23,862 nucleotides of DNA from contig NEEC01000280.1 of NCBI GenBank assembly GCA_002189035.1, positions 1-23,862 of the forward strand, in the 5' to 3' direction. Origin of the DNA: Utricularia gibba (Eukaryota > Streptophyta > Magnoliopsida > Lamiales > Lentibulariaceae). Within the stretch, counting starts at the first letter, position 1. Each line of letters opens with the position of its first letter. Made by a program: the position numbers and the translations under genes. A model generated the notes under the pieces. It worked only from the letters and a program-made list of their open reading frames with translations, made no database searches and was not told the DNA's origin. This document shows, in pieces, positions 267-23,862 of this stretch.

Positions 267-308
267 GATGCGCAATGAAATGACTACGTCGCACATCCTG
301 GTCCGCGA
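267..308 (+). other. CpG-rich block, near-invariant in all monomers (example copy)
   Basis: This 42-base block (GATGCGCAATGAAATGACTA then CGTCGCACATCCTGGTCCGC and GA) contains five CpGs and is the same in M1 and M2. It survives intact in the scrambled segment (15,662-15,701) and beside the deletions at 13,970. The only changes I see are GGTACGCG near 12,990, loss of GGTCCGC near 14,999 and one lost C near 20,106. It may be a protein-binding or homogenisation core, or simply a region without hits. Confidence 0.6.
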
Positions 309-374
309 AACACCTCTTGCATAACATGCAGATCCTTGCTCTTCATAGCACACTGTTGGGAAGCCCTTTTCGAG

Positions 375-396
375 CTCCAAGTATTATAATTTGGAG
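375..396. repeat. Conserved inverted repeat CTCCAA ... TTGGAG (example copy)
   Basis: A perfect 6-bp inverted repeat (375-380 and 391-396) encloses the 10-base AT loop GTATTATAAT. It extends by one G-T and one A-T position on the outside. It lies in the ~110-bp region identical in M1 and M2 and so recurs in nearly every monomer. It is broken in the copies near 14,601 and 15,072, and shortened in the one near 16,545. It could form a small cruciform or hairpin; no function is demonstrated. Confidence 0.8.
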
Positions 397-555
397 TTAC
401 GTTTGTCCGATAACTGTGGACATATTAAAAAAGGGCCACAACGAAAGGTGTCTCACGTGGCATTCCGTGGTGACTGCATTTAATAATGTGCTTCATGTTC
501 TCGAAATTGATGCGAACAACATACAAGGCAAAAGAATCAAATAGCCACTAGAGAC

Positions 556-1077
556 ATGGTATACGGGAATGGTGCATCAAGAATCAGAAGTATCATAGCA
601 ACTAAATGCATCAACATATGGTGTCAGAATTCATCTACTATGCGATCAAGTTGGAAAAAAGTCACATGCTACATCATGAATTTCGTGGCATCACTTATCC
701 CAACACTGTTATACACTCTGGATATGCGTAAATATTTATTTTTAATGAATCCCGTGCACGTGTGATTTTTAGGATGCACCCCGAATGATGATGCGCAATG
801 AAATGACTACGTCGCACATCCTGGTCCGCGAAGCACCTCTTGCATAACATGCAGATCCTTGCTCTTCATAGCACACTGTTGGGAAGCCCTTTTCGAGCTC
901 AAGTATTATAATTTGGAGTTACGTTTGTCCGATAACTGTGGACATATTAAAAACAAGCCACAACGAAAAGTGTCTTAGGTGTCCTTTCTTGGTGGCTGCG
1001 TCTAAGAATGTGCTTCTCGTTCTCGACATTGATGCAAATGGGATACACGGCAAAAGAATCAAATAGCCACTAGAGAC
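556..1077 (+). repeat. M1 monomer, type example (523-bp class)
   Basis: In order the monomer holds: head ATGGTATACGGG; invariant GTGCATCAAGAATCAGAAG; the short M1 linker (AAATGCATCAACATATGG); an EcoRI site GAATTC at 627-632 found only in M1-type heads; the AT-rich stretch; GTGCACGTG; the CpG-rich block; the CTCCAA/TTGGAG inverted repeat; then the M1 tail. About 110 bp from CATAACATGCAG to ACATATTAAAAA is identical between M1 and M2. Divergence is concentrated in the last ~115 bp and in the linker. This copy is one base short of canonical. Confidence 0.95.
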
Positions 1078-2134
1078 ATGGTGTATGGGAATGGTGCATC
1101 AAGAATCAGAAGTATCATAGCAACTAATTGAATCAATCAACAGCCAAAACATATGGTGTCAAACTTCATCGGATATGCGATCAAGATGGAAAAAAGTCAC
1201 ATGTTACATCATGAATTTCGTGGCATCACTTATCCCAACACTGTTGTATACTCAGGATATGCGTAAATATTTATTTTTAACAAATCCGGTGCACGTGTGA
1301 TTTTTCGGCTGCATCCCGAATGGTGATGCGCAATGAAATGACTACGTCGCACATCCTGGTCCGCGAACACCTCTTGCATAACATGCAGATCCTTGCTCTT
1401 CATAGCACACTGTTGGGAAGCCCTTTTCGAGCTCCAAGTATTATAATTTGGAGTTACGTTTGTCCGATAACTGTGGACATATTAAAAAAGGGCCACAACG
1501 AAAGGTGTCTCACGTGGCATTCCGTGGTGACTGCATTTAATAATGTGCTTCATGTTCTCGAAATTGATGCGAACAACATACAAGGCAAAAGAATCAAATA
1601 GCCACTAGAGACATGGTATACGGGAATGGTGCATCAAGAATCAGAAGTATCATAGCAACTAAATGCATCAACATATGGTGTCAGAATTCATCTACTATGC
1701 GATCAAGTTGGAAAAAAGTCACATGCTACATCATGAATTTCGTGGCATCACTTATCCCAACACTGTTATACACTCTGGATATGCGTAAATATTTATTTTT
1801 AATGAATCCCGTGCACGTGTGATTTTTAGGATGCACCCCGAATGATGATGCGCAATGAAATGACTACGTCGCACATCCTGGTCCGCGAAGCACCTCTTGC
1901 ATAACATGCAGATCCTTGCTCTTCATAGCACACTGTTGGGAAGCCCTTTTCGAGCTCCAAGTATTATAATTTGGAGTTACGTTTGTCCGATAACTGTGGA
2001 CATATTAAAAACAAGCCACAACGAAAAGTGTCTTAGGTGTCCTTTCTTGGTGGCTGCGTCTAAGAATGTGCTTCTCGTTCTCGACATTGATGCAAATGGA
2101 TACACGGCAAAAGAATCAAATAGCCACTAGAGAC
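1078..2134 (+). repeat. HOR unit 2: M2 (1078-1612) + M1 (1613-2134)
   Basis: M2 is 535 bp with one base missing at the site where copies vary between GCGAAACACC and GCGAAGCACC; here it reads GCGAACACC near 1365. M1 is 522 bp with one G missing near 2098 (AAATGGATACAC for AAATGGGATACAC). Otherwise canonical. Confidence 0.95.
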
Positions 2135-3193
2135 ATGGTGTATGGGAATGGTGCATCAAGAATCAGAAGTATCATAGCAACTAATTGAATCAATCAACAG
2201 CCAAAACATATGGTGTCAAACTTCATCGGATATGCGATCAAGATGGAAAAAAGTCACATGTTACATCATGAATTTCGTGGCATCACTTATCCCAACACTG
2301 TTGTATACTCAGGATATGCGTAAATATTTATTTTTAACAAATCCGGTGCACGTGTGATTTTTCGGCTGCATCCCGAATGGTGATGCGCAATGAAATGACT
2401 ACGTCGCACATCCTGGTCCGCGAAACACCTCTTGCATAACATGCAGATCCTTGCTCTTCATAGCACACTGTTGGGAAGCCCTTTTCGAGCTCCAAGTATT
2501 ATAATTTGGAGTTACGTTTGTCCGATAACTGTGGACATATTAAAAAAGGGCCACAACGAAAGGTGTCTCACGTGGCATTCCGTGGTGACTGCATTTAATA
2601 ATGTGCTTCATGTTCTCGAAATTGATGCGAACAACATACAAGGCAAAAGAATCAAATAGCCACTAGAGACATGGTATACGGGAATGGTGCATCAAGAATC
2701 AGAAGTATCATAGCAACTAAATGCATCAACATATGGTGTCAGAATTCATCTACTATGCGATCAAGTTGGAAAAAAGTCACATGCTACATCATGAATTTCG
2801 TGGCATCACTTATCCCAACACTGTTATACACTCTGGATATGCGTAAATATTTATTTTTAATGAATCCCGTGCACGTGTGATTTTTAGGATGCACCCCGAA
2901 TGATGATGCGCAATGAAATGACTACGTCGCACATCCTGGTCCGCGAAGCACCTCTTGCATAACATGCAGATCCTTGCTCTTCATAGCACACTGTTGGGAA
3001 GCCCTTTTCGAGCTCCAAGTATTATAATTTGGAGTTACGTTTGTCCGATAACTGTGGACATATTAAAAACAAGCCACAACGAAAAGTGTCTTAGGTGTCC
3101 TTTCTTGGTGGCTGCGTCTAAGAATGTGCTTCTCGTTCTCGACATTGATGCAAATGGGATACACGGCAAAAGAATCAAATAGCCACTAGAGAC
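2135..3193 (+). repeat. HOR unit 3, canonical 1059 bp: M2 (2135-2670) + M1 (2671-3193)
   Basis: Both monomers have full canonical length (536 and 523). I used this copy as the reference for judging indels elsewhere in the array. Confidence 0.96.
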
Positions 3194-4243
3194 ATGGTGT
3201 ATGGGAATGGTGCATCAAGAATCAGAAGTATCATAGCAACTAATTGAATCAATCAACAGCCAAAACATATGGTGTCAAACTTCATCGGATATGCGATCAA
3301 GATGGAAAAAAGTCACATGTTACATCATGAATTTCGTGGCATCACTTATCCCAACACTGTTGTATACTCAGGATATGCGTAAATATTTATTTTTAACAAA
3401 TCCGGTGCACGTGTGATTTTTCGGCTGCATCCCGAATGGTGATGCGCAATGAAATGACTACGTCGCACATCCTGGTCCGCGAACACCTCTTGCATAACAT
3501 GCAGATCCTTGCTCTTCATAGCACACTGTTGGGAAGCCCTTTTCGAGCTCCAAGTATTATAATTTGGAGTTACGTTTGTCCGATAACTGTGGACATATTA
3601 AAAAAGGGCCACAACGAAAGGTGTCTCACGTGGCATTCCGTGGTGACTGCATAATGTGCTTCATGTTCTCGAAATTGATGCGAACAACATACAAGGCAAA
3701 AGAATCAAATAGCCACTAGAGACATGGTATACGGGAATGGTGCATCAAGAATCAGAAGTATCATAGCAACTAAATGCATCAACATATGGTGTCAGAATTC
3801 ATCTACTATGCGATCAAGTTGGAAAAAAGTCACATGCTACATCATGAATTTCGTGGCATCACTTATCCCAACACTGTTATACACTCTGGATATGCGTAAA
3901 TATTTATTTTTAATGAATCCCGTGCACGTGTGATTTTTAGGATGCACCCCGAATGATGATGCGCAATGAAATGACTACGTCGCACATCCTGGTCCGCGAA
4001 GCACCTCTTGCATAACATGCAGATCCTTGCTCTTCATAGCACACTGTTGGGAAGCCCTTTTCGAGCTCCAAGTATTATAATTTGGAGTTACGTTTGTCCG
4101 ATAACTGTGGACATATTAAAAACAAGCCACAACGAAAAGTGTCTTAGGTGTCCTTTCTTGGCTGCGTCTAAGAATGTGCTTCTCGTTCTCGACATTGATG
4201 CAAATGGGATACACGGCAAAAGAATCAAATAGCCACTAGAGAC
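3194..4243 (+). repeat. HOR unit 4: M2 (3194-3723) + M1 (3724-4243)
   Basis: At 1050 bp this is the shortest unit of the regular left block. M2 lacks one base near 3482 (GCGAACACC) and five bases near 3651 (GACTGCATAATG, losing part of TTTAATAATG). M1 lacks three bases near 4160 (CTTGGCTGCG for CTTGGTGGCTGCG), consistent with loss of one copy in the short GGTGG/TGG repetition. Confidence 0.95.
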
Positions 4244-5302
4244 ATGGTGTATGGGAATGGTGCATCAAGAATCAGAAGTATCATAGCAACTAATTGAATC
4301 AATCAACAGCCAAAACATATGGTGTCAAACTTCATCGGATATGCGATCAAGATGGAAAAAAGTCACATGTTACATCATGAATTTCGTGGCATCACTTATC
4401 CCAACACTGTTGTATACTCTGGATATGCGTAAATATTTATTTTTAACAAATCCGGTGCACGTGTGATTTTTCGGCTGCATCCCGAATGGTGATGCGCAAT
4501 GAAATGACTACGTCGCACATCCTGGTCCGCGAAACACCTCTTGCATAACATGCAGATCCTTGCTCTTCATAGCACACTGTTGGGAAGCCCTTTTCGAGCT
4601 CCAAGTATTATAATTTGGAGTTACGTTTGTCCGATAACTGTGGACATATTAAAAAAGGGCCACAACGAAAGGTGTCTCACGTGGCATTCCGTGGTGACTG
4701 CATTTAATAATGTGCTTCATGTTCTCGAAATTGATGCGAACAACATACAAGGCAAAAGAATCAAATAGCCACTAGAGACATGGTATACGGGAATGGTGCA
4801 TCAAGAATCAGAAGTATCATAGCAACTAAATGCATCAACATATGGTGTCAGAATTCATCTACTATGCGATCAAGTTGGAAAAAAGTCACATGCTACATCA
4901 TGAATTTCGTGGCATCACTTATCCCAACACTGTTATACACTCTGGATATGCGTAAATATTTATTTTTAATGAATCCCGTGCACGTGTGATTTTTAGGATG
5001 CACCCCGAATGATGATGCGCAATGAAATGACTACGTCGCACATCCTGGTCCGCGAAGCACCTCTTGCATAACATGCAGATCCTTGCTCTTCATAGCACAC
5101 TGTTGGGAAGCCCTTTTCGAGCTCCAAGTATTATAATTTGGAGTTACGTTTGTCCGATAACTGTGGACATATTAAAAACAAGCCACAACGAAAAGTGTCT
5201 TAGGTGTCCTTTCTTGGTGGCTGCGTCTAAGAATGTGCTTCTCGTTCTCGACATTGATGCAAATGGGATACACGGCAAAAGAATCAAATAGCCACTAGAG
5301 AC
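4244..5302 (+). repeat. HOR unit 5, 1059 bp: M2 (4244-4779) + M1 (4780-5302)
   Basis: Full length. The M2 copy carries the M1-type variant CTCTGG near 4418, where other M2 copies have CTCAGG. This is a one-site class switch consistent with a small conversion. Confidence 0.95.
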
Positions 5303-6361
5303 ATGGTGTATGGGAATGGTGCATCAAGAATCAGAAGTATCATAGCAACTAATTGAATCAATCAACAGCCAAAACATATGGTGTCAAACTTCATCGGATA
5401 TGCGATCAAGATGGAAAAAAGTCACATGTTACATCATGAATTTCGTGGCATCACTTATCCCAACACTGTTGTATACTCAGGATATGCGTAAATATTTATT
5501 TTTAACAAATCCGGTGCACGTGTGATTTTTCGGATGCATCCCGAATGGTGATGCGCAATGAAATGACTACGTCGCACATCCTGGTCCGCGAAGCACCTCT
5601 TGCATAACATGCAGATCCTTGCTCTTCATAGCACACTGTTGGGAAGCCCTTTTCGAGCTCCAAGTATTATAATTTGGAGTTACGTTTGTCCGATAACTGT
5701 GGACATATTAAAAAAGGGCCACAACGAAAGGTGTCTCACGTGGCATTCCGTGGTGACTGCATTTAATAATGTGCTTCATGTTCTCGAAATTGATGCGAAC
5801 AACATACAAGGCAAAAGAATCAAATAGCCACTAGAGACATGGTATACGGGAATGGTGCATCAAGAATCAGAAGTATCATAGCAACTAAATGCATCAACAT
5901 ATGGTGTCAGAATTCATCTACTATGCGATCAAGTTGGAAAAAAGTCACATGCTACATCATGAATTTCGTGGCATCACTTATCCCAACACTGTTATACACT
6001 CTGGATATGCGTAAATATTTATTTTTAATGAATCCCGTGCACGTGTGATTTTTAGGATGCACCCCGAATGATGATGCGCAATGAAATGACTACGTCGCAC
6101 ATCCTGGTCCGCGAAGCACCTCTTGCATAACATGCAGATCCTTGCTCTTCATAGCACACTGTTGGGAAGCCCTTTTCGAGCTCCAAGTATTATAATTTGG
6201 AGTTACGTTTGTCCGATAACTGTGGACATATTAAAAACAAGCCACAACGAAAAGTGTCTTAGGTGTCCTTTCTTGGTGGCTGCGTCTAAGAATGTGCTTC
6301 TCGTTCTCGACATTGATGCAAATGGGATACACGGCAAAAGAATCAAATAGCCACTAGAGAC
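5303..6361 (+). repeat. HOR unit 6, 1059 bp: M2 (5303-5838) + M1 (5839-6361)
   Basis: Full length. M2 has the M1-type base in TTCGGATGCATCCC near 5530 (others TTCGGCTGCATCCC). It is the first M2 in the window with GCGAAGCACC, the M1-like form, instead of GCGAAACACC. Most M2 copies from here to about 12 kb share that form. Confidence 0.95.
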
Positions 6362-7419
6362 ATGGTGTATGGGAATGGTGCATCAAGAATCAGAAGTATC
6401 ATAGCAACTAATTGAATCAATCAACAGCCAAAACATATGGTGTCAAACTTCATCGGATATGCGATCAAGATGGAAAAAAGTCACATGTTACATCATGAAT
6501 TTCGTGGCATCACTTATCCCAACACTGTTGTATACTCAGGATATGCGTAAATATTTATTTTTAACAAATCCGGTGCACGTGTGATTTTTCGGCTGCATCC
6601 CGAATGGTGATGCGCAATGAAATGACTACGTCGCACATCCTGGTCCGCGAAGCACCTCTTGCATAACATGCAGATCCTTGCTCTTCATAGCACACTGTTG
6701 GGAAGCCCTTTCGAGCTCCAAGTATTATAATTTGGAGTTACGTTTGTCCGATAACTGTGGACATATTAAAAAAGGGCCACAACGAAAGGTGTCTCACGTG
6801 GCATTCCGTGGTGACTGCATTTAATAATGTGCTTCATGTTCTCGAAATTGATGCGAACAACATACAAGGCAAAAGAATCAAATAGCCACTAGAGACATGG
6901 TATACGGGAATGGTGCATCAAGAATCAGAAGTATCATAGCAACTAAATGCATCAACATATGGTGTCAGAATTCATCTACTATGCGATCAAGTTGGAAAAA
7001 AGTCACATGCTACATCATGAATTTCGTGGCATCACTTATCCCAACACTGTTATACACTCTGGATATGCGTAAATATTTATTTTTAATGAATCCCGTGCAC
7101 GTGTGATTTTTAGGATGCACCCCGAATGATGATGCGCAATGAAATGACTACGTCGCACATCCTGGTCCGCGAAGCACCTCTTGCATAACATGCAGATCCT
7201 TGCTCTTCATAGCACACTGTTGGGAAGCCCTTTTCGAGCTCCAAGTATTATAATTTGGAGTTACGTTTGTCCGATAACTGTGGACATATTAAAAACAAGC
7301 CACAACGAAAAGTGTCTTAGGTGTCCTTTCTTGGTGGCTGCGTCTAAGAATGTGCTTCTCGTTCTCGACATTGATGCAAATGGGATACACGGCAAAAGAA
7401 TCAAATAGCCACTAGAGAC
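6362..7419 (+). repeat. HOR unit 7: M2 (6362-6896) + M1 (6897-7419)
   Basis: 1058 bp. The only length change is one T missing from AGCCCTTTTCGAG near 6708. The same T-run contraction recurs near 9891, 14058, 18118 and 22818. Confidence 0.95.
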
Positions 7420-8478
7420 ATGGTGTATGGGAATGGTGCATCAAGAATCAGAAGTATCATAGCAACTAATTGAATCAATCAACAGCCAAAACATATGGTG
7501 TCAAACTTCATCGGATATGCGATCAAGATGGAAAAAAGTCACATGTTACATCATGAATTTCGTGGCATCACTTATCCCAACACTGTTATATACTCAGGAT
7601 ATGCGTAAATATTTATTTTTAACAAATCCGGTGCACGTGTGATTTTTCGGCTGCACCCCGAATGGTGATGCGCAATGAAATGACTACGTCGCACATCCTG
7701 GTCCGCGAAGCACCTCTTGCATAACATGCAGATCCTTGCTCTTCATAGCACACTGTTGGGAAGCCCTTTTCGAGCTCCAAGTATTATAATTTGGAGTTAC
7801 GTTTGTCCGATAACTGTGGACATATTAAAAAAGGGCCACAACGAAAGGTGTCTCACGTGGCATTCCGTGGTGACTGCATTTAATAATGTGCTTCATGTTC
7901 TCGAAATTGATGCGAACAACATACAAGGCAAAAGAATCAAATAGCCACTAGAGACATGGTATACGGGAATGGTGCATCAAGAATCAGAAGTATCATAGCA
8001 ACTAAATGCATCAACATATGGTGTCAGAATTCATCTACTATGCGATCAAGTTGGAAAAAAGTCACATGCTACATCATGAATTTCGTGGCATCACTTATCC
8101 CAACACTGTTATACACTCTGGATATGCGTAAATATTTATTTTTAATGAATCCCGTGCACGTGTGATTTTTAGGATGCACCCCGAATGATGATGCGCAATG
8201 AAATGACTACGTCGCACATCCTGGTCCGCGAAGCACCTCTTGCATAACATGCAGATCCTTGCTCTTCATAGCACACTGTTGGGAAGCCCTTTTCGAGCTC
8301 CAAGTATTATAATTTGGAGTTACGTTTGTCCGATAACTGTGGACATATTAAAAACAAGCCACAACGAAAAGTGTCTTAGGTGTCCTTTCTTGGTGGCTGC
8401 GTCTAAGAATGTGCTTCTCGTTCTCGACATTGATGCAAATGGGATACACGGCAAAAGAATCAAATAGCCACTAGAGAC
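7420..8478 (+). repeat. HOR unit 8, 1059 bp: M2 (7420-7955) + M1 (7956-8478)
   Basis: Full length. M2 has M1-type alleles at two places: TGTTATATACTC near 7583 and GCTGCACCCCG near 7650. Confidence 0.95.
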
Positions 8479-9537
8479 ATGGTGTATGGGAATGGTGCAT
8501 CAAGAATCAGAAGTATCATAGCAACTAATTGAATCAATCAACAGCCAAAACATATGGTGTCAAACTTCATCGGATATGCGATCAAGATGGAAAAAAGTCA
8601 CATGTTACATCATGAATTTCGTGGCATCACTTATCCCAACACTGTTGTATACTCAGGATATGCGTAAATATTTATTTTTAACAAATCCGGTGCACGTGTG
8701 ATTTTTCGGCTGCATCCCGAATGGTGATGCGCAATGAAATGACTACGTCGCACATCCTGGTCCGCGAAGCACCTCTTGCATAACATGCAGATCCTTGCTC
8801 TTCATAGCACACTGTTGGGAAGCCCTTTTCGAGCTCCAAGTATTATAATTTGGAGTTACGTTTGTCCGATAACTGTGGACATATTAAAAAAGGGCCACAA
8901 CGAAAGGTGTCTCACGTGGCATTCCGTGGTGACTGCATTTAATAATGTGCTTCATGTTCTCGAAATTGATGCGAACAACATACAAGGCAAAAGAATCAAA
9001 TAGCCACTAGAGACATGGTATACGGGAATGGTGCATCAAGAATCAGAAGTATCATAGCAACTAAATGCATCAACATATGGTGTCAGAATTCATCTACTAT
9101 GCGATCAAGTTGGAAAAAAGTCACATGCTACATCATGAATTTCGTGGCATCACTTATCCCAACACTGTTATACACTCTGGATATGCGTAAATATTTATTT
9201 TTAATGAATCCCGTGCACGTGTGATTTTTAGGATGCACCCCGAATGATGATGCGCAATGAAATGACTACGTCGCACATCCTGGTCCGCGAAGCACCTCTT
9301 GCATAACATGCAGATCCTTGCTCTTCATAGCACACTGTTGGGAAGCCCTTTTCGAGCTCCAAGTATTATAATTTGGAGTTACGTTTGTCCGATAACTGTG
9401 GACATATTAAAAACAAGCCACAACGAAAAGTGTCTTAGGTGTCCTTTCTTGGTGGCTGCGTCTAAGAATGTGCTTCTCGTTCTCGACATTGATGCAAATG
9501 GGATACACGGCAAAAGAATCAAATAGCCACTAGAGAC
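8479..9537 (+). repeat. HOR unit 9, 1059 bp: M2 (8479-9014) + M1 (9015-9537)
   Basis: Full canonical length in both monomers, with no obvious class switching apart from the GCGAAGCACC form in M2. Confidence 0.95.
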
Positions 9538-10594
9538 ATGGTGTATGGGAATGGTGCATCAAGAATCAGAAGTATCATAGCAACTAATTGAATCAATCAA
9601 CAGCCAAAACATATGGTGTCAAACTTCATCGGATATGCGATCAAGATGGAAAAAAGTCACATGTTACATCATGAATTTCGTGGCATCACTTATCCCAACA
9701 CTGTTATATACTCTGGATATGCGTAAATATTTATTTTTAATGAATCCGTGCACGTGTGATTTTTCGGATGCATCCCGAATGGTGATGCGCAATGAAATGA
9801 CTACGTCGCACATCCTGGTCCGCGAAGCACCTCTTGCATAACATGCAGATCCTTGCTCTTCATAGCACACTGTTGGGAAGCCCTTTCGAGCTCCAAGTAT
9901 TATAATTTGGAGTTACGTTTGTCCGATAACTGTGGACATATTAAAAAAGGGCCACAACGAAAGGTGTCTCACGTGGCATTCCGTGGTGACTGCATTTAAT
10001 AATGTGCTTCATGTTCTCGAAATTGATGCGAACAACATACAAGGCAAAAGAATCAAATAGCCACTAGAGACATGGTATACGGGAATGGTGCATCAAGAAT
10101 CAGAAGTATCATAGCAACTAAATGCATCAACATATGGTGTCAGAATTCATCTACTATGCGATCAAGTTGGAAAAAAGTCACATGCTACATCATGAATTTC
10201 GTGGCATCACTTATCCCAACACTGTTATACACTCTGGATATGCGTAAATATTTATTTTTAATGAATCCCGTGCACGTGTGATTTTTAGGATGCACCCCGA
10301 ATGATGATGCGCAATGAAATGACTACGTCGCACATCCTGGTCCGCGAAGCACCTCTTGCATAACATGCAGATCCTTGCTCTTCATAGCACACTGTTGGGA
10401 AGCCCTTTTCGAGCTCCAAGTATTATAATTTGGAGTTACGTTTGTCCGATAACTGTGGACATATTAAAAACAAGCCACAACGAAAAGTGTCTTAGGTGTC
10501 CTTTCTTGGTGGCTGCGTCTAAGAATGTGCTTCTCGTTCTCGACATTGATGCAAATGGGATACACGGCAAAAGAATCAAATAGCCACTAGAGAC
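9538..10594 (+). repeat. HOR unit 10: M2 (9538-10071) + M1 (10072-10594)
   Basis: 1057 bp. The M2 middle is M1-like from about 9705 to 9745 (TTATATACTCTGG, TTAATGAATCC) while its head, linker and tail stay M2. The site where M1 has AATCCCGTG and M2 has AATCCGGTG reads AATCCGTG, one base short. One T is missing from the run near 9891. Confidence 0.95.
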
Positions 10595-11651
10595 ATGGTG
10601 TATGGGAATGGTGCATCAAGAATCAGAAGTATCATAGCAACTAATTGAATCAATCAACAGCCAAAACATATGGTGTCAAACTTCATCGGATATGCGATCA
10701 AGATGGAAAAAAGTCACATGTTACATCATGAATTTCGTGGCATCACTTATCCCAACACTGTTGTATACTCAGGATATGCGTAAATATTTATTTTTAACAA
10801 ATCCGGTGCACGTGTGATTTTTCGGCTGCATCCCGAATGGTGATGCGCAATGAAATGACTACGTCGCACATCCTGGTCCGCGAAGCACCTCTTGCATAAC
10901 ATGCAGATCCTTGCTCTTCATAGCACACTGTTGGGAAGCCCTTTTCGAGCTCCAAGTATTATAATTTGGAGTTACGTTTGTCGATAACTGTGACATATTA
11001 AAAAAGGGCCACAACGAAAGGTGTCTCACGTGGCATTCCGTGGTGACTGCATTTAATAATGTGCTTCATGTTCTCGAAATTGATGCGAACAACATACAAG
11101 GCAAAAGAATCAAATAGCCACTAGAGACATGGTATACGGGAATGGTGCATCAAGAATCAGAAGTATCATAGCAACTAAATGCATCAACATATGGTGTCAG
11201 AATTCATCTACTATGCGATCAAGTTGGAAAAAAGTCACATGCTACATCATGAATTTCGTGGCATCACTTATCCCAACACTGTTATACACTCTGGATATGC
11301 GTAAATATTTATTTTTAATGAATCCCGTGCACGTGTGATTTTTAGGATGCACCCCGAATGATGATGCGCAATGAAATGACTACGTCGCACATCCTGGTCC
11401 GCGAAGCACCTCTTGCATAACATGCAGATCCTTGCTCTTCATAGCACACTGTTGGGAAGCCCTTTTCGAGCTCCAAGTATTATAATTTGGAGTTACGTTT
11501 GTCCGATAACTGTGGACATATTAAAAACAAGCCACAACGAAAAGTGTCTTAGGTGTCCTTTCTTGGTGGCTGCGTCTAAGAATGTGCTTCTCGTTCTCGA
11601 CATTGATGCAAATGGGATACACGGCAAAAGAATCAAATAGCCACTAGAGAC
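10595..11651 (+). repeat. HOR unit 11: M2 (10595-11128) + M1 (11129-11651)
   Basis: 1057 bp. M2 has two single-base deletions close together at about 10,981-10,993, reading TTTGTCGATAACTGTGACAT. The normal form has TTTGTCC and TGTGGAC. These sites are identical in M1 and M2, so these losses are not at class-diagnostic positions. Confidence 0.95.
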
Positions 11652-12709
11652 ATGGTGTATGGGAATGGTGCATCAAGAATCAGAAGTATCATAGCAACTA
11701 ATTGAATCAATCAACAGCCAAAACATATGGTGTCAAACTTCATCGGATATGCGATCAAGATGGAAAAAAGTCACATGTTACATCATGAATTTCGTGGCAT
11801 CACTTATCCCAACACTGTTGTATACTCAGGATATGCGTAAATATTTATTTTTAACAAATCCGGTGCACGTGTGATTTTTCGGCTGCATCCCGAATGGTGA
11901 TGCGCAATGAAATGACTACGTCGCACATCCTGGTCCGCGAAGCACCTCTGCATAACATGCAGATCCTTGCTCTTCATAGCACACTGTTGGGAAGCCCTTT
12001 TCGAGCTCCAAGTATTATAATTTGGAGTTACGTTTGTCCGATAACTGTGGACATATTAAAAAAGGGCCACAACGAAAGGTGTCTCACGTGGCATTCCGTG
12101 GTGACTGCATTTAATAATGTGCTTCATGTTCTCGAAATTGATGCGAACAACATACAAGGCAAAAGAATCAAATAGCCACTAGAGACATGGTATACGGGAA
12201 TGGTGCATCAAGAATCAGAAGTATCATAGCAACTAAATGCATCAACATATGGTGTCAGAATTCATCTACTATGCGATCAAGTTGGAAAAAAGTCACATGC
12301 TACATCATGAATTTCGTGGCATCACTTATCCCAACACTGTTATACACTCTGGATATGCGTAAATATTTATTTTTAATGAATCCCGTGCACGTGTGATTTT
12401 TAGGATGCACCCCGAATGATGATGCGCAATGAAATGACTACGTCGCACATCCTGGTCCGCGAAGCACCTCTTGCATAACATGCAGATCCTTGCTCTTCAT
12501 AGCACACTGTTGGGAAGCCCTTTTCGAGCTCCAAGTATTATAATTTGGAGTTACGTTTGTCCGATAACTGTGGACATATTAAAAACAAGCCACAACGAAA
12601 AGTGTCTTAGGTGTCCTTTCTTGGTGGCTGCGTCTAAGAATGTGCTTCTCGTTCTCGACATTGATGCAAATGGGATACACGGCAAAAGAATCAAATAGCC
12701 ACTAGAGAC
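11652..12709 (+). repeat. HOR unit 12: M2 (11652-12186) + M1 (12187-12709)
   Basis: 1058 bp. One T is missing near 11,948 (CACCTCTGCAT for CACCTCTTGCAT). Otherwise canonical. Confidence 0.95.
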
Positions 12710-13764
12710 ATGGTGTATGGGAATGGTGCATCAAGAATCAGAAGTATCATAGCAACTAATTGAATCAATCAACAGCCAAAACATATGGTGTCAAACTTCA
12801 TCGGATATGCGATCAAGATGGAAAAAAGTCACATGTTACATCATGAATTTCGTGGCATCACTTATCCCAACACTGTTATATACTCAGGATATGCGTAAAT
12901 ATTTATTTTTAACAAATCCGTGCACGTGTGATTTTTCGGATGCATCCCGAATGTGATGCGCAATGAAATGACTACGTCGCACATCCTGGTACGCGAACAC
13001 CTCTGCATAACATGCAGATCCTTGCTCTTCATAGCACACTGTTGGGAAGCCCTTTTCGAGCTCCAAGTATTATAATTTGGAGTTACGTTTGTCCGATAAC
13101 TGTGGACATATTAAAAAAGGGCCACAACGAAAGGTGTCTCACGTGGCATTCCGTGGTGACTGCATTTAATAATGTGCTTCATGTTCTCGAAATTGATGCG
13201 AACAACATACAAGGCAAAAGAATCAAATAGCCACTAGAGACATGGTATACGGGAATGGTGCATCAAGAATCAGAAGTATCATAGCAACTAAATGCATCAA
13301 CATATGGTGTCAGAATTCATCTACTATGCGATCAAGTTGGAAAAAAGTCACATGCTACATCATGAATTTCGTGGCATCACTTATCCCAACACTGTTATAC
13401 ACTCTGGATATGCGTAAATATTTATTTTTAATGAATCCCGTGCACGTGTGATTTTTAGGATGCACCCCGAATGATGATGCGCAATGAAATGACTACGTCG
13501 CACATCCTGGTCCGCGAAGCACCTCTTGCATAACATGCAGATCCTTGCTCTTCATAGCACACTGTTGGGAAGCCCTTTTCGAGCTCCAAGTATTATAATT
13601 TGGAGTTACGTTTGTCCGATAACTGTGGACATATTAAAAACAAGCCACAACGAAAAGTGTCTTAGGTGTCCTTTCTTGGTGGCTGCGTCTAAGAATGTGC
13701 TTCTCGTTCTCGACATTGATGCAAATGGGATACACGGCAAAAGAATCAAATAGCCACTAGAGAC
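12710..13764 (+). repeat. HOR unit 13: M2 (12710-13241) + M1 (13242-13764)
   Basis: 1055 bp. The M2 copy loses four single bases: AATCCGTGC near 12,917, GAATGTGATG near 12,950, GCGAACACC near 12,992 and CACCTCTGC near 13,000. It also has one substitution (GGTACGCG for GGTCCGCG). Three of the four losses fall where M1 and M2 differ or where M2 copies vary. This is the last unit of the regular left block. Confidence 0.95.
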
Positions 13765-15230: not shown

Positions 15231-15970
15231 ATGGTATACGGGAATGGTGCATCAAGAATCAGAAGTATCATAGCAACTAAATGCATCAACATATGGTGTC
15301 AGAATTCATCTACTATGCGATCAAGTTGGAAAAAAGTCACATGCTACATCATGAATTTCGTGGCATCACTTATCCCAACACTGTTATACACTCTGGATAT
15401 GCGTAAATATTTATTTTTAATGAATCCCGTGCACGTGTGATTTTTAGGATGCACCCGAATGATGATGCGCAATGAAATGACTACGTCGCACATCCTGGTC
15501 CGCGAAGCACCTCTTGCATAACATGCAGATCAATTGCTGGCACACTGTCACATGTTACATCTGTTATACACTCTGGATACTTATCGTAAAACATTTTGTA
15601 TTTTCAGGATATGCAATCAAATATGCATTTTGTGATTTTTATCCGATGCACGTGAATTTATGATGCGCAATGAAATGACTACGTCGCACATCCTGGTCCG
15701 CGCGCACCTCTTGCATGAACATGTCGCAGATCCTGGTCCGCATAGCACACTTGCATAGGACATGCCATCTTTGCGAGCATAGCACACAATGTTGGAGTTA
15801 CGTTTGTCCGAGCTGTGGCCACTTATAATTTGGAGCCACAACGTTTGTCCGTATAACTAGACATATTAAAAAAGTCCTTTCTTGGTGGCTGCGTCTAAGA
15901 ATGTGCTTCTCGTTCTCGACATTGATGCAAATGGGATACACGGCAAAAGAATCAAATAGCCACTAGAGAC
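15231..15970 (+). repeat. M1 monomer expanded to 740 bp by a scrambled internal segment
   Basis: The first 300 bp are normal M1, apart from one C missing near 15,453. From about 15,531 the sequence becomes a patchwork of fragments of the same satellite, and it returns to a normal M1 tail at about 15,875 (TCCTTTCTTGGTGGCTGC). The excess over canonical length is 217 bp. The block GATGCGCAATGAAATGAC occurs twice, at 15,464 and 15,662, so the excess includes a degraded partial duplication with a 198-base offset. Confidence 0.9.
15531..15875 (+). repeat. Scrambled satellite mosaic
   Basis: Short fragments of the monomer follow one another out of order, with small novel joins. Recognisable pieces are CACATGTTACATC, TGTTATACACTCTGGA, the intact CpG-rich block (15,662-15,701), GCAGATCCTGGTCCGC (a fusion of two separate monomer motifs), CATAGCACAC twice, TTGGAGTTACGTTTGTCCGA and TATAATTTGGAGCCACAACG. 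Every piece can be traced to the satellite; I see no foreign insert. It could be template-switching repair or a misassembled or low-accuracy consensus patch. Confidence 0.85.
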
Positions 15971-16204
15971 ATGGTGTATGGGAATGGTGCATCAAGAATC
16001 AGAAGTCATAGCAACTAATTGAATCAATCAACAGCCAAAACATATGGTGTCAAACTTCATCGATATGCGATCAAGATGGAAAAAAGTCACATGTTACATC
16101 ATGAATTTCGTGGCATCACTTATCCCAACACTGTTATACACTCTGGATATGCGTAAAATGATTTTAATGCAACCCGTGCACGGCAAAATTTCAGGAGCCA
16201 CTAC
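15971..16204 (+). repeat. Truncated M2 monomer, 234 bp
   Basis: The head and linker are normal M2, except that two bases are lost near 16,007 (AGAAGTCATAGC) and one near 16,062. The middle turns M1-like (TTATACACTCTGG). After ATGCGTAAAATG the sequence jumps from the GTGCACG motif straight into GGCAAAA of a monomer end, omitting roughly 300 bp. The join at 16,179-16,182 shares CACG between the two parents. It is followed by a rearranged version of the monomer junction (AGGAGCCACTACATGAATA). Confidence 0.88.
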
Positions 16205-16730
16205 ATGAATATACGGGTGAATGCATCAAATGACTACAGTCGCACTAGCATCCAAAGGCATCAACATGCATGGTGTCAGAATTCATCTACTATGCGATCA
16301 AGTTGGAAAAAAGTCACATGCTACATCATGAATTTCGTGGCATCACTTATCCCAACACTGTTATACACTCTGGATATGCGTAAATATTTATTTTTAATGA
16401 ATCCCGTGCACGTGTGATTTTTAGGATGCACCCCGAATGATGATGCGCAATGAAATGACTACGTCGCACATCCTGGTCCGCGAAGCACCTCTTGCATAAC
16501 ATGCAGATCCTTGCTCTTCATAGCCCTTGTCGAGCTCTTTTCGATCCATAATTTGGAGTTACGTTTTGGAGTTACGTTTGTCCGATAACTGTGGACATAT
16601 TAAAAAAGGGCCACAACGAAAGGTGTCTCACGTGGCATTCCGTGGTGACTGCATTTAATAATGTGCTTCATGTTCTCGAAATTGATGCGAACAACATACA
16701 AGGCAAAAGAATCAAATAGCCACTAGAGAC
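16205..16730 (+). repeat. Chimeric monomer: rearranged M1 head, M2 tail (526 bp)
   Basis: The first ~65 bases are a scrambled M1 head (ATGAATATACGGGTGAATGC, then AAATGACTAC, CGCACTAGCATCC). A normal M1 body with the EcoRI site follows. The segment 16,520-16,565 is shortened and contains a 13-bp tandem duplication. The tail is clearly M2 class (AAAGGGCC, TCTCACGTGGC, ACATACAAGG), so an M1 head is joined to an M2 tail and another M1 follows, breaking strict alternation. Confidence 0.88.
16553..16578 (+). repeat. 13-bp tandem duplication
   Basis: The unit TTGGAGTTACGTT occurs twice in direct succession (16,553-16,565 and 16,566-16,578). Every other copy of the monomer has it once. It lies immediately after a shortened, reordered stretch (TAGCCCTTGTCGAGCTC, TTTTCGATCC), so it is part of the same local rearrangement. 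Confidence 0.92.
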
Positions 16731-17251: not shown

Positions 17252-17779
17252 ATGGTGTATGGGAATGGTGCATCAAGAATCAGAAGTATCATAGCAACTA
17301 ATTGAATCAATCAACAGCAAAACATATGGTGTCAAACTTCATCGGATATGCGATCAAGATGGAAAAAAGTCACATGTTACATCATGAATTTCGTGGCATC
17401 ACTTATCCCAACACTGTTATACACTCTGGATATGCGTAAATATTTATTTTTAATGAATCCCGTGCACGTGTGATTTTTAGGATGCACCCCGAATGATGAT
17501 GCGCAATGAAATGACTACGTCGCACATCCTGGTCCGCGAAGCACCTCTTGCATAACATGCAGATCCTTGCTCTTCATAGCACACTGTTGGGAAGCCCTTT
17601 TCGAGCTCCAAGTATTATAATTTGGAGTTACGTTTGTCCGATAACTGTGGACATATTAAAAAAAGCCACAACGAAAAGTGTCTCAGGTGCCTTTCGTGGT
17701 GACTGCATTTAAGAATGTGCTTCTCGTTCTCGAATTGATGCAAACATACAGGCAAAAGAATCAAATAGCCACTAGAGAC
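17252..17779 (+). repeat. Hybrid monomer: M2 head, M1 middle, mixed tail (528 bp)
   Basis: The head and long linker are M2 (one C missing, CAACAGCAAAAC). The middle from about 17,417 is M1 (TTATACACTCTGG, AATCCCGTG, AGGATGCACCCC). The tail mixes classes base by base: GAAAAGTG is M1, TCTCAGGTGCC is intermediate, GACTGCATTTAAGAATG mixes both. CTCGAATTG and CATACAGGC each lack a base at a diagnostic site. Confidence 0.9.
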
Positions 17780-18299
17780 ATGGTATATGGGAATGGTGCA
17801 TCAAGAATCAGAAGTATCATAGCAACTAATGCATCAATCAACAAACATATGGTGTCAGAATTCATCGGATATGCGATCAAGTTGGAAAAAAGTCACATGC
17901 TACATCATGAATTTCGTGGCATCACTTATCCCAACACTGTTATACACTCTGGATATGCGTAAATATTTATTTTTAATGAATCCCGTGCACGTGTGATTTT
18001 TAGGATGCCCCGAATGATGATGCGCAATGAAATGACTACGTCGCACATCCTGGTCCGCGAAGCACCTCTTGCATAACATGCAGATCCTTGCTCTTCATAG
18101 CACACTGTTGGGAAGCCCTTTCGAGCTCCAAGTATTATAATTTGGAGTTACGTTTGTCCGATAACTGTGACATATTAAAAAAGCCACAACGAAAGGTGTT
18201 CACGTGGCATTCCGTGGTGCTGCATTTAATAATGTGCTTCATGTTCTCGAAATTGATGCGAACAACATAAGGCAAAAGAATCAAATAGCCACTAGAGAC
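17780..18299 (+). repeat. Hybrid monomer, 520 bp, M2-like tail
   Basis: The head reads ATGGTATATGGG, intermediate between the two classes. The linker CTAATGCATCAATCAACAAAC is intermediate in length. It has GAATTC followed by M2-type ATCGGATATGCG. The tail is M2-like but with bases missing (GGTGTTCACG, GGTGCTGC, ACATAAGGC). GGATGCCCCGAATG near 18,003 lacks two bases. Confidence 0.9.
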
Positions 18300-18809
18300 A
18301 TGTATACGGGAATGGTGCATCAAGAATCAGAAGTATCATAGAACTAAATGCAATCAACATAGGTGTCAAATTCATCTACTATGCGATCAAGTTGGAAAAA
18401 AGTCACATGCTACATCATGAATTTCGTGGCATCACTTATCCCAACACTGTTATACACTCTGGATATGCGTAAATATTTATTTTTAATGAATCCCGTGCAC
18501 GTGTGATTTTTAGGATGCACCCCGAATGATGATGCGCAATGAAATGACTACGTCGCACATCCTGGTCCGCGAAGCACCTCTTGCATAACATGCAGATCCT
18601 TGCTCTTCATAGCACACTGTTGGGAAGCCCTTTTCGAGCTCCAAGTATTATAATTTGGAGTTACGTTTGTCCGATAACTGTGGACATATTAAAAACAAGC
18701 CACAACGAAAGTGTCTTACGTGTCCTTTCTTGGTGGCTGCGTTAAGAATGTGCTTCTGTTCTCGAATTGATGCAAAATACAGCAAAAGAATCAAATAGCC
18801 ACTAGAGAC
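18300..18809 (+). repeat. Hybrid monomer, 510 bp, M1-like tail
   Basis: The head is ATGTATACGGG, M1-like with a G missing. GTGTCAAATTCATC has lost the base that separates M1 and M2 and with it the EcoRI site. The body is normal. The M1-type tail lacks single bases at several diagnostic columns: GAAAGTGTC, GCGTTAAGAATG, CTTCTGTTC, CTCGAATTG and CAAAATACAGC. Confidence 0.9.
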
Positions 18810-19318
18810 ATGTGTATGGGAATGGTGCATCAAGAATCAGAAGTATCATAGCAACTAATTGAATCAATAACATATGGTGTCAAATTCATCTATATGCGAT
18901 CAAGATGGAAAAAAGTCACATGTTACATCATGAATTTCGTGGCATCACTTATCCCAACACTGTTATACTCTGGATATGCGTAAATATTTTTTTTATGAAT
19001 CCGTGCACGTGTGATTTTTAGGATGCACCCCGAATGATGATGCGCAATGAAATGACTACGTCGCACATCCTGGTCCGCGAAGCACCTCTTGCATAACATG
19101 CAGATCCTTGCTCTTCATAGCACACTGTTGGGAAGCCCTTTTCGAGCTCCAAGTATTATAATTTGGAGTTACGTTTGTCCGATAACTGTGGACATATTAA
19201 AAAAGCCACAACGAAAGTGTCTCACGTGGCTTTCCGTGGTGCTGCGTTTAATAATGTGCTTCTGTTCTCGAATTGATGCAAACATACAAGGCAAAAGAAT
19301 CAAATAGCCACTAGAGAC
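18810..19318 (+). repeat. Hybrid monomer, 509 bp, M2-like
   Basis: The head is ATGTGTATGGG (M2-like, one G missing) and the linker CTAATTGAATCAATAACATA is an M2 linker with about 12 bases missing. GTGTCAAATTCATC and CATCTATATGCG are each one base short at diagnostic columns. A T-run replaces ATTTATTTTTAA near 18,988. The tail (AAAAAGCCAC, GGTGCTGCG, CTTCTGTTC, CTCGAATTG) drops further diagnostic bases. Confidence 0.9.
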
Positions 19319-19841
19319 ATGGTATACGGGAATGGTGCATCAAGAATCAGAAGTATCATAGCAACTAAATCAATCAAACATATATGGTGTCAAATTCATC
19401 TATATGCGATCAAGATGGAAAAAAGTCACATGTTACATCATGAATTTCGTGGCATCACTTATCCCAAACTGTTATACACTCTGGATATGCGTAAATATTT
19501 ATTTTTAATGAATCCCGTGCACGTGTGATTTTTAGGATGCACCCCGAATGATGATGCGCAATGAAATGACTACGTCGCACATCCTGGTCCGCGAAGCACC
19601 TCTTGCATAACATGCAGATCCTTGCTCTTCATAGCACACTGTTGGGAAGCCCTTTTCGAGCTCCAAGTATTATAATTTGGAGTTACGTTTGTCCGATAAC
19701 TGTGGACATATTAAAAAAGGGCCACAACGAAAGGTGTCTCACGTGGCATTCCGTGGTGACTGCATTTAATAATGTGCTTCATGTTCTCGAAATTGATGCG
19801 AACAACATACAAGGCAAAAGAATCAAATAGCCACTAGAGAC
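19319..19841 (+). repeat. Hybrid monomer: M1-like head, M2 tail (523 bp)
   Basis: The head ATGGTATACGGG is M1. The linker (CTAAATCAATCAAACATATA) is intermediate. GTGTCAAATTCATC and CTATATGCG repeat the one-base losses of the previous copy. The middle is M1 with CCCAAACTG near 19,465. The tail is a perfect M2 class tail (AAAGGGCC, TCTCACGTGGC, ACATACAAGG). The next monomer is M1-headed, so this copy stands where an M2 would be expected. Confidence 0.9.
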
Positions 19842-20358
19842 ATGGTATACGGGAATGGTGCATCAAGAATCAGAAGTATCATAGCAGAAAAAAAAAACAT
19901 GGTGTCAGAATTCATCTACTATGCGATCAAGTTGGAAAAAAGTCACATGCTACATCATGAATTTCGTGGCATCACTTATCCCAACACTGTTATACACTCT
20001 GGATATGCGTAAATATTTATTTTTAATGAATCCCGTGCACGTGTGATTTTTAGGATGCACCCCGAATGATGATGCGCAATGAAATGACTACGTCGCACAT
20101 CCTGGTCGCGAAGCACCTCTTGCATAACATGCAGATCCTTGCTCTTCATAGCACACTGTTGGGAAGCCCTTTTCGAGCTCCAAGTATTATAATTTGGAGT
20201 TACGTTTGTCCGATAACTGTGGACATATTAAAAACAAGCCACAACGAAAAGTGTCTTAGGTGTCCTTTCTTGGTGGCTGCGTCTAAGAATGTGCTTCTCG
20301 TTCTCGACATTGATGCAAATGGGATACACGGCAAAAGAATCAAATAGCCACTAGAGAC
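19842..20358 (+). repeat. M1 monomer with an A10 patch, 517 bp
   Basis: The M1 head, body and tail are normal apart from one C missing in GGTCGCGAAG near 20,106 and the linker. There ACTAAATGCATCAACATATGG is replaced by a G, ten A residues (19,888-19,897) and CATGG. No other copy in the window shows a run like this. Confidence 0.92.
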
Positions 20359-21416
20359 ATGGTGTATGGGAATGGTGCATCAAGAATCAGAAGTATCATA
20401 GCAACTAATTGAATCAATCAACAGCCAAAACATATGGTGTCAAACTTCATCGGATATGCGATCAAGATGGAAAAAAGTCACATGTTACATCATGAATTTC
20501 GTGGCATCACTTATCCCAACACTGTTTTATACTCAGGATATGCGTAAATATTTATTTTTAATGAATCCCGTGCACGTGTGATTTTTTCGGCTGCACCCCG
20601 AATGATGATGCGCAATGAAATGACTACGTCGCACATCCTGGTCCGCGAAGCACCTCTTGCATAACATGCAGATCCTTGCTCTTCATAGCACACTGTTGGG
20701 AAGCCCTTTTCGAGCTCCAAGTATTATAATTTGGAGTTACGTTTGTCCGATAACTGTGGACATATTAAAAAAAGGGCCACAACGAAAGGTGTCTCACGTG
20801 GCATTCCGTGGTGACTGCATTTAATAATGTGCTTCATGTTCTCGAAATTGATGCGAACAACATACAAGGCAAAAGAATCAAATAGCCACTAGAGACATGG
20901 TATACGGGAATGGTGCATCAAGAATCAGAAGTATCATAGCAACTAAATGCATCAACATATGGTGTCAGAATTCATCTACTATGCGATCAAGTTGGAAAAA
21001 AGTCACATGCTACATCATGAATTTCGTGGCATCACTTATCCCAACTGTTATACACTCTGGATATGCGTAAATATTTATTTTTAATGAATCCGTGCACGTG
21101 TGATTTTTAGGATGCACCCCGAATGATGATGCGCAATGAAATGACTACGTCGCACATCCTGGTCCGCGAAGCACCTCTTGCATAACATGCAGATCCTTGC
21201 TCTTCATAGCACACTGTTGGGAAGCCCTTTTCGAGCTCCAAGTATTATAATTTGGAGTTACGTTTGTCCGATAACTGTGGACATATTAAAAACAAGCCAC
21301 AACGAAAAGTGTCTTAGGTGTCCTTTCTTGGTGGCTGCGTCTAAGAATGTGCTTCTCGTTCTCGACATTGATGCAAATGGGATACACGGCAAAAGAATCA
21401 AATAGCCACTAGAGAC
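20359..21416 (+). repeat. HOR unit: M2 (20359-20896, 538 bp) + M1 (20897-21416, 520 bp)
   Basis: Regular alternation resumes. M2 is two bases longer than canonical (an extra T in GATTTTTTCGG near 20,581 and an extra A in TTAAAAAAAGGG near 20,766). It carries M1 alleles in the middle (AATGAATCCCG, GCACCCCGAATGATG), and GTTTTATACTCAGG is unique to it. M1 lacks two bases near 21,043 (CCCAACTGTT) and one near 21,090 (AATCCGTGC). Confidence 0.94.
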
Positions 21417-22472
21417 ATGGTGTATGGGAATGGTGCATCAAGAATCAGAAGTATCATAGCAACTAATTGAATCAATCAACAGCCAAAACATATGGTGTCA
21501 AACTTCATCGGATATGCGATCAAGATGGAAAAAAGTCACATGTTACATCATGAATTTCGTGGCATCACTTATCCCAACACTGTTGTATACTCTGGATATG
21601 CGTAAATATTTATTTTTAACAAATCCGTGCACGTGTGATTTTTAGGATGCATCCCGAATGTGATGCGCAATGAAATGACTACGTCGCACATCCTGGTCCG
21701 CGAAACACCTCTTGCATAACATGCAGATCCTTGCTCTTCATAGCACACTGTTGGGAAGCCCTTTTCGAGCTCCAAGTATTATAATTTGGAGTTACGTTTG
21801 TCCGATAACTGTGGACATATTAAAAAAGGGCCACAACGAAAGGTGTCTCACGTGGCATTCCGTGGTGACTGCATTTAATAATGTGCTTCATGTTCTCGAA
21901 ATTGATGCGAACAACATACAAGGCAAAAGAATCAAATAGCCACTAGAGACATGGTATACGGGAATGGTGCATCAAGAATCAGAAGTATCATAGCAACTAA
22001 ATGCATCAACATATGGTGTCAGAATTCATCTACTATGCGATCAAGTTGGAAAAAAGTCACATGCTACATCATGAATTTCGTGGCATCACTTATCCCAACA
22101 CTGTTATACACTCTGGATATGCGTAAATATTTATTTTTAATGAATCCCGTGCACGTGTGATTTTTAGGATGCACCCGAATGATGATGCGCAATGAAATGA
22201 CTACGTCGCACATCCTGGTCCGCGAAGCACCTCTTGCATAACATGCAGATCCTTGCTCTTCATAGCACACTGTTGGGAAGCCCTTTTCGAGCTCCAAGTA
22301 TTATAATTTGGAGTTACGTTTGTCCGATAACTGTGGACATATTAAAAACAAGCCACAACGAAAAGTGTCTTAGGTGTCCTTTCTTGGTGGCTGCGTCTAA
22401 GAATGTGCTTCTCGTTCTCGACATTGATGCAAATGGGATACACGGCAAAAGAATCAAATAGCCACTAGAGAC
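21417..22472 (+). repeat. HOR unit: M2 (21417-21950) + M1 (21951-22472)
   Basis: M2 (534 bp) has M1-type CTCTGG and TTTTTAGGATG plus two one-base losses at diagnostic sites (AATCCGTGC, GAATGTGATG). M1 (522 bp) lacks one C in GCACCCGAATG near 22,173. Confidence 0.95.
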
Positions 22473-23526
22473 ATGGTGTATGGGAATGGTGCATCAAGAA
22501 TCAGAAGTATCATAGCAACTAATTGAATCAATCAACAGCCAAAACATATGTGTGTCAAACTTCATCGGATATGCGATCAAGATGGAAAAAAGTCACATGT
22601 TACATCATGAATTTCGTGGCATCACTTATCCCAACACTGTTGTATACTCAGGATATGCGTAAATATTTATTTTTAACAAATCCGGTGCACGTGTGATTTT
22701 TCGGATGCATCCCGAATGTGATGCGCAATGAAATGACTACGTCGCACATCCTGGTCCGCGAAGCACCTTGCATAACATGCAGATCCTTGCTCTTCATAGC
22801 ACACTGTTGGGAAGCCCTTTCGAGCTCCAAGTATTATAATTTGGAGTTACGTTTGTCCGATAACTGTGGACATATTAAAAAAGGGCCACAACGAAAGGTG
22901 TCTCACGTGGCATTCCGTGGTGACTGCATTTAAAATGTGCTTCATGTTCTCGAAATTGATGCGAACAACATACAAGGCAAAAGAATCAAATAGCCACTAG
23001 AGACATGGTATACGGGAATGGTGCATCAAGAATCAGAAGTATCATAGCAACTAAAATGCATCAACATATGGTGTCAGAATTCATCTACTATGCGATCAAG
23101 TTGGAAAAAAGTCACATGCTACATCATGAATTTCGTGGCATCACTTATCCCAACACTGTTATACACTCTGGATATGCGTAAATATTTATTTTTAATGAAT
23201 CCCGTGCACGTGTGATTTTTAGGATGCACCCGAATGATGATGCGCAATGAAATGACTACGTCGCACATCCTGGTCCGCGAAGCACCTCTTGCATAACATG
23301 CAGATCCTTGCTCTTCATAGCACACTGTTGGGAAGCCCTTTTCGAGCTCCAAGTATTATAATTTGGAGTTACGTTTGTCCGATAACTGTGGACATATTAA
23401 AAACAAGCCACAACGAAAAGTGTCTTAGGTGTCCTTTCTTGGTGGCTGCGTCTAAGAATGTGCTTCTCGTTCTCGACATTGATGCAAATGGATACACGGC
23501 AAAAGAATCAAATAGCCACTAGAGAC
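22473..23526 (+). repeat. HOR unit: M2 (22473-23004) + M1 (23005-23526)
   Basis: M2 (532 bp) reads CATATGTGTGTC near 22,546 (one extra base). It lacks a base in GAATGTGATG, two in GCACCTTGCAT, one T in GCCCTTTCGAG and one base in TTTAAAATGTGC. M1 (522 bp) has an extra A in CTAAAATGCATC near 23,054 and lacks one C in GCACCCGAATG and one G in AAATGGATACAC. Confidence 0.95.
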
Positions 23527-23862
23527 ATGGTGTATGGGAATGGTGCATCAAGAATCAGAAGTATCATAGCAACTAATTGAATCAATCAACAGCCAAAACA
23601 TATGGTGTCAAACTTCATCGGATATGCGATCAAGATGGAAAAAAGTCACATGTTACATCATGAATTTCGTGGCATCACTTATCCCAACACTGTTGTATAC
23701 TCAGGATATGCGTAAATATTTATTTTTAACAAATCCGTGCACGTGTGATTTTTCGGCTGCATCCCGAATGGTGATGCGCAATGAAATGACTACGTCGCAC
23801 ATCCTGGTCCGCGAACACCTCTTGCATAACATGCAGATCCTTGCTCTTCATAGCACACTGTT
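23527..23862 (+). repeat. Partial M2 monomer (first 336 bp, cut by window end)
   Basis: The M2 head, long linker, CTCAGG and TTTTTCGGCTGC are all present, with one-base losses at AATCCGTGC and GCGAACACC. The array continues beyond the window. Confidence 0.95.

Follow-up and report, generated by a model that had tools for sequence, protein, structure and literature searches.

The stretch analyzed here, hereafter the window, comprises positions 1 to 23,862 of contig C292 of Utricularia gibba, in an assembly of 100,091,633 bases on 516 contigs. It holds a satellite array in which a 523-bp monomer (M1) alternates with a 536-bp monomer (M2). The consensus sequences of the two types, each built from 12 monomers lying below position 13000, are about 89% identical and differ at 57 diagnostic columns, which comprise 44 substitutions and a 13-column gap. 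The array is absent from the output of a tandem-repeat tool whose longest period is 500. Between two regularly alternating parts lies a block, at 17501-19555, of four monomers that are neither M1 nor M2, the states of the two types being mixed column by column (Table 1). Together these hybrid monomers miss 53 bases. The register across the block, from an M2 through the four hybrids to an M1, is kept.

Table 1. Coordinates of the hybrid monomers and of the regular parts of the array in the window
Feature	Position	Strand	Length (b)	Observations
Regular alternation of M1 and M2	270..13478	+		M1 about 523 bp, M2 about 536 bp; source of both consensus sequences
Hybrid monomer 1	17501..18021	+	521	19 M1 / 14 M2 states (34 substitution columns, ties against); 10 bases missing
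Hybrid monomer 2	18022..18533	+	512	Mostly M1: 29 M1 / 5 M2 states; 12 bases missing
Hybrid monomer 3	18534..19041	+	508	9 M1 / 21 M2 states; 18 bases missing
Hybrid monomer 4	19042..19555	+	514	19 M1 / 11 M2 states; 13 bases missing; 3 private bases
Regular alternation again	19556..23775	+		M1 first, at 19556

The array is irregular at other places as well. Over 13479-15466, monomers are short by runs of 3 to 10 absent columns, several of these runs lying in the M2 tail. The segment at 15510-16260 is scrambled, with small satellite fragments out of order and regular monomers on either side; BLAST against an M1/M2 dimer, with overlapping hits culled, gave partial matches of 85% only in this segment and no listed match over 14954-15630 and 16158-16245. 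In an M1 monomer that is regular elsewhere, a run of A at 19885-19900 replaces the expected CATAGCAGAAAAAAAAAACATGG. Over their last 10 diagnostic columns, the M2 monomers of the window have tails that are M2-like, M1-like, or mixed, a variation that may reflect either real M2 subtypes or partial mixing.

Five short hybrid strings had been quoted in an earlier, sequence-only reading of this DNA, and the window contains all of them: GAAAGTG at 18707 and 19213; GGTGCTGC at 18216 and 19238; CGAATTG at 17731, 18763, and 19269, with one copy beyond the block at 14958; GTGTCAAATTC at 18363, 18877, and 19387; and CATCTATATG at 18887 and 19397. The M1 and M2 forms of the same strings occur 19 to 22 times each.

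To relate losses to the diagnostic columns, each monomer was aligned to a two-row M1/M2 profile, and losses were counted on the 34 substitution columns that precede the M2 tail. Losses of ambiguous position were assigned in one count to diagnostic columns (ties for) and in another to invariant columns (ties against); for the null, the same number of losses was placed at random and re-aligned identically. Over the 136 cells that the four hybrid monomers of the window contribute, we counted 35 diagnostic losses with ties for and 8 with ties against, versus null values of 5.0 (SD 2.5, largest 12) and 1.4 (SD 1.2, largest 4). None of 73 shuffles reached the observed count under either placement; therefore, the enrichment in the window is far above chance. 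The sequence-only reading had held that bases are missing exactly where M1 and M2 differ. The tabulation bears out a strong enrichment, but "exactly" is too strong, because the placement of most losses is ambiguous and a base is still present at most disputed columns. GAAAGTG, GGTGCTGC, and CGAATTG, for instance, can be read equally well as a parental base retained and a base lost from the adjoining run.

Hybrid monomers are not confined to the window. Together with eight other fetched stretches (L001 to L008), it yielded 167 monomers of 480 to 560 b, the range within which monomers were classed, and these divide into 24 hybrid and 143 clean monomers. A hybrid was required to show at least 3 of the 34 columns of each type, which excluded weaker cases such as those of L002 at 2437 and L004 at 2812. 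Segments outside the length range were left out (15467-15664 and 15665-16444 in the window, 7876-8341 in L006, and 3306-4362 in L008), and two related arrays, L009 and L010, were handled separately. The hybrids number 4 in the window, 4 in L002, 1 in L004, 3 in L005, 7 in L006, 2 in L007, and 3 in L008, with none among the classed monomers of L001 and L003. Thus, 20 hybrids with differing mosaics lie beyond the window, in six stretches on five contigs. A hybrid block comprises between 1 and 4 monomers. One 22-base hybrid string carrying losses occurs exactly at two sites on C292 and at a single site on each of C97, C293, and C295; copies with 1 or 2 mismatches lie on C80, C214, C293, and C185. 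Another stretch of the assembly, L014 (C515:183400-186000, on a contig of 267,500 b), holds a mitochondrial cox1 gene split in two by an intron, the frame of its first part continuing into LAGLIDADG endonuclease domains (Pfam). A cox1 intron with such an endonuclease is common in flowering-plant mitochondria.

The enrichment extends to the whole set of hybrids. Under a uniform null, 30.9 ± 5.2 diagnostic losses with ties for and 7.5 ± 2.7 with ties against are expected in the 24 hybrids, versus 215 and 56 observed, counts reached by none of 300 shuffles. With ties for, the empty cells are 215 among 816 diagnostic and 71 among 11,496 invariant ones; with ties against, there are 56 diagnostic and 245 invariant losses. 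Among the disputed substitution cells, 26% are empty when ties are placed for and 7% when they are placed against, and every non-empty one holds the M1 or the M2 base except 2 cells with another base. Regardless of whether they fall on a diagnostic column, 242 of 302 losses lie within 2 columns of one, versus 88 ± 8 under the uniform null and 132 ± 8 under a null whose placement weights come from the losses seen in clean monomers. Since L005 to L008 had been fetched because they carry or adjoin a hybrid string, the test was repeated with only the hybrids of L002 (four) and L004 (one), loci that were not picked for hybrid sequence; these gave 35 and 7 diagnostic losses versus null values of 4.2 and 1.1, reached by none of 49 shuffles. 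In the M2 tail, whose 10 columns vary among M2 monomers, we counted with ties for 33 losses in 28 mixed, 18 in 16 M1-like, and 17 in 28 M2-like tails, and with ties against 7 losses in 36 mixed, 0 in 14 M1-like, and 0 in 22 M2-like tails. That the losses are mostly ambiguous in placement, their diagnostic count falling from 215 to 56 when ties are reversed, counts against reading the hybrids as an artefact.

At a fine scale, the hybrids are mosaics of the two known templates, and few of their bases belong to neither. Each switches between parental states 4 to 14 times among its 29 to 34 informative columns, and the 24 hybrids together show 245 switches versus 303 expected for random order, so adjacent columns tend to agree. 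Private substitutions number only 8 in the 24 monomers (6 at invariant and 2 at diagnostic columns), next to 302 losses and 12 insertions. No two hybrids are identical: the closest other hybrid lies at a median of 16 edits, with a minimum of 6. Among 24 M1 and 24 M2 clean monomers sampled, the nearest-neighbor medians are 1 and 3 and the largest values 21 and 9.

A collapsed consensus would account for this combination. Long, error-prone reads of both monomer types would have been piled onto a single template, the second set of reads coming from the same array one monomer out of register, from another copy of the array, or from the other allele. At columns shared by the two types, the consensus would be correct; where they differ, neither base would be clearly supported, and the caller would, at each column in turn, either take one parental base or emit nothing. 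An empty column would arise because, where insertions are cheap, it is less costly to call no base and charge every read an insertion than to accept mismatches in roughly half of them. The mosaic, the enrichment, its recurrence on other contigs, the register breaks described below, and the simulated losses of this kind are shown by the analysis; the mixing of reads, the program responsible, and the source of the second reads are what we infer from them. Alignments of the O(ND) type generally contain no mismatches. The Canu paper describes falcon_sense for read correction and pbdagcon for contig consensus, both working on O(ND) alignments (PMC5411767), and a review gives the PacBio assembly of Utricularia gibba as made with HGAP at 88x, for a genome size of 82 Mb (PMC5793159).

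We simulated the process with 20 noisy reads of M1/M2 windows (9% insertion, 4% deletion, 1% substitution), taking as consensus the sequence of least total cost, with error rates and costs of our own choosing. With insertion-cheap costs, 14% (n = 13), 60% (n = 14), and 73% (n = 16) of disputed columns were dropped at minor read shares of 0.3, 0.4, and 0.5, respectively. The corresponding values were 4% (n = 12), 31% (n = 8), and 67% (n = 4) with intermediate costs; 0.6% (n = 14), 5% (n = 13), and 16% (n = 17) when a mismatch cost as much as an insertion plus a deletion; and 0% (n = 18), 0.5% (n = 18), and 3.2% (n = 16) with unit costs. In the real hybrids, 26.5% of the same 33 columns are dropped and 1.4% of bases at invariant columns (ties for), to which the nearest simulated setting was intermediate costs at a share of 0.4, with 31% of disputed and 0.7% of invariant columns dropped (ties for). 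This shows that mixing and an insertion-tolerant consensus are enough to produce the pattern, though not which program produced it. Column by column, simulated and observed losses correlated with rho values of 0.06 to 0.75 (ties for) and -0.04 to 0.64 (ties against), rho being undefined where zero losses occurred. Random losses correlate with the observed profile about equally (0.47 and 0.54), the simulation doing no better at most settings, and the column-by-column profile is therefore not counted as evidence.

Judging from the assembled sequence, the block is very probably a consensus artefact of mixed M1 and M2 reads, and its four repeat units are most likely an assembly error, not real DNA. 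The proposal of a collapsed M1/M2 consensus, put forward in the sequence-only reading, draws its support from the enrichment of losses, the number of switches, the rarity of private substitutions, mosaics that differ from block to block, and the simulation. Similar effects have been described for alleles. In an early FALCON assembly of PacBio reads, merged haplotypes gave indels at differing nucleotides (Korlach et al. 2017, PMC5632298). There, as here, two similar sequences were merged in a long-read assembly, with indels where they differ; the published statement concerns alleles of unique regions and is given as data not shown, whereas here two satellite monomer types are involved and losses are counted against a null from the assembled sequence alone. 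The HiCanu paper states that the collapse of heterozygosity yields a mosaic consensus that may match no allele, with possible frameshifting errors (PMC7545148). A consensus unlike any real allele and open to such errors is what we propose as well, but the passage concerned names the effect in passing, for alleles, and its account does not include loss at diagnostic columns. Satellite arrays are listed among collapsed high-copy repeats in the vertebrate genomes paper (PMC8081667), where collapse is defined by excess read coverage, while here it is judged from sequence. Among the literature matches listed, no title concerns base loss at paralogue-diagnostic satellite columns, although the effect may be in print.

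The alternation of M1 and M2 is broken at 5 of the 9 hybrid blocks with clean flanks and at 1 of 118 junctions between clean monomers. For these junctions, as for the cells of the related arrays discussed below, Fisher values would assume independence of dependent data, and we therefore use the ratios alone. Many hybrids may thus mark spots where reads lay one monomer out of register. At the other 4 blocks, the one in the window included, the register is kept, which counts against reading the hybrids as an artefact. The mixed reads may also have come from the two alleles of a diploid sample, with arrays out of register, a variant of the consensus artefact that we regard as possible but, within that reading, as less likely than not. 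The published precedent concerns merged haplotypes, and two alleles whose monomer counts differ by an odd number would align M1 over M2, with register breaks as the result; nothing in this analysis, however, tells this variant apart from mixing inside one long array.

Real unequal exchange would break the register too, and the hybrids could in principle be true M1/M2 recombinants that arose through unequal crossing-over or gene conversion and decayed later through small deletions. The breaks at 5 blocks and the agreement of adjacent columns, with switches somewhat below random, are both in keeping with such an origin. Nevertheless, we consider it very unlikely. Most hybrids show about ten switches per 34 columns, far beyond a few exchange tracts: a few recombination events would not yield 245 switches, and the contiguous single-parent tracts with few breakpoints expected from gene conversion or crossing-over were not found in the 24 hybrids. 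Moreover, decay would neither single out diagnostic columns nor leave 302 losses beside 8 private substitutions, and the clean monomers beside the hybrids in these arrays hardly differ from one another.

Ordinary indel errors in a thinly covered stretch, arising without any mixing of M1 and M2, are a highly improbable source of the pattern. Clean monomers do lose bases too (319 in the 143), and the damage by runs of absent columns at 13479-15466 fits such errors, although that segment may perhaps represent a worse breakdown of the same mixed consensus. Yet, errors of this kind leave the mosaic unexplained, and in clean monomers they are rare at diagnostic columns: 35 of 4,862 diagnostic cells with ties for (next to 204 of 68,497 invariant cells) or 10 with ties against (next to 301 invariant losses), versus the 215 or 56 of 816 in hybrids. 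With random placement weighted by clean-monomer losses, the null gave 27.8 ± 4.9 (ties for) and 8.2 ± 2.6 (ties against) in the 24 hybrids and fell short of the observed counts in all 300 shuffles.

A real third monomer class, older than or intermediate between M1 and M2, seems scarcely credible. Related arrays with mixed states are known on C214 (L009) and C185 (L010), both nearer to M2 than to M1 (BLAST identities of about 93-95% and 90-92% in nearly all hits), and the sharing of one exact 22-base hybrid string by C97, C293, and C295 would suit such a class. The two arrays carry 15 (C214) and 27 (C185) bases that differ from M1 and M2 alike, but none of these appears in the hybrids (0 of 360 and 0 of 648 cells), and a third class was rejected on this ground. 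Own substitutions would be expected of such a class, whereas the 24 hybrids have 8, none is identical to another, and their median nearest neighbor is 16 edits away; shared substitutions together with a closer likeness to each other than to M1 or M2 were not found. The closest pair, on two contigs (L002 at 1407 and L006 at 3222), is 6 edits apart, a relatedness that counts against the artefact reading, although both monomers are nearly pure M1. Within the related arrays themselves, columns varying within the array lose bases in 24 of 221 cells on C214 and 22 of 216 on C185, and invariant columns in 77 of 6,526 and 62 of 5,856, so that, in cells that are not independent, the rate of loss at varying columns is about 9 times that at non-varying ones in the two arrays, which speaks for the artefact reading.

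It is hardly tenable that the losses are real and stem from M1/M2 heteroduplexes formed during intra-array exchange, with repair stripping the mismatched bases from both strands; if this were true, real hybrid monomers would lose bases just where their parents differ.

If the hybrids are instead the product of a consensus drawn from mixed M1 and M2 reads, satellite arrays in noisy long-read assemblies may hold invented monomers that could be mistaken for new repeat variants or recombinants. Where bases are lost at paralogue-diagnostic columns and private substitutions are very few, the signature can be recognized without the reads, and it could therefore be used to screen public assemblies before the evolution of their repeats is inferred.
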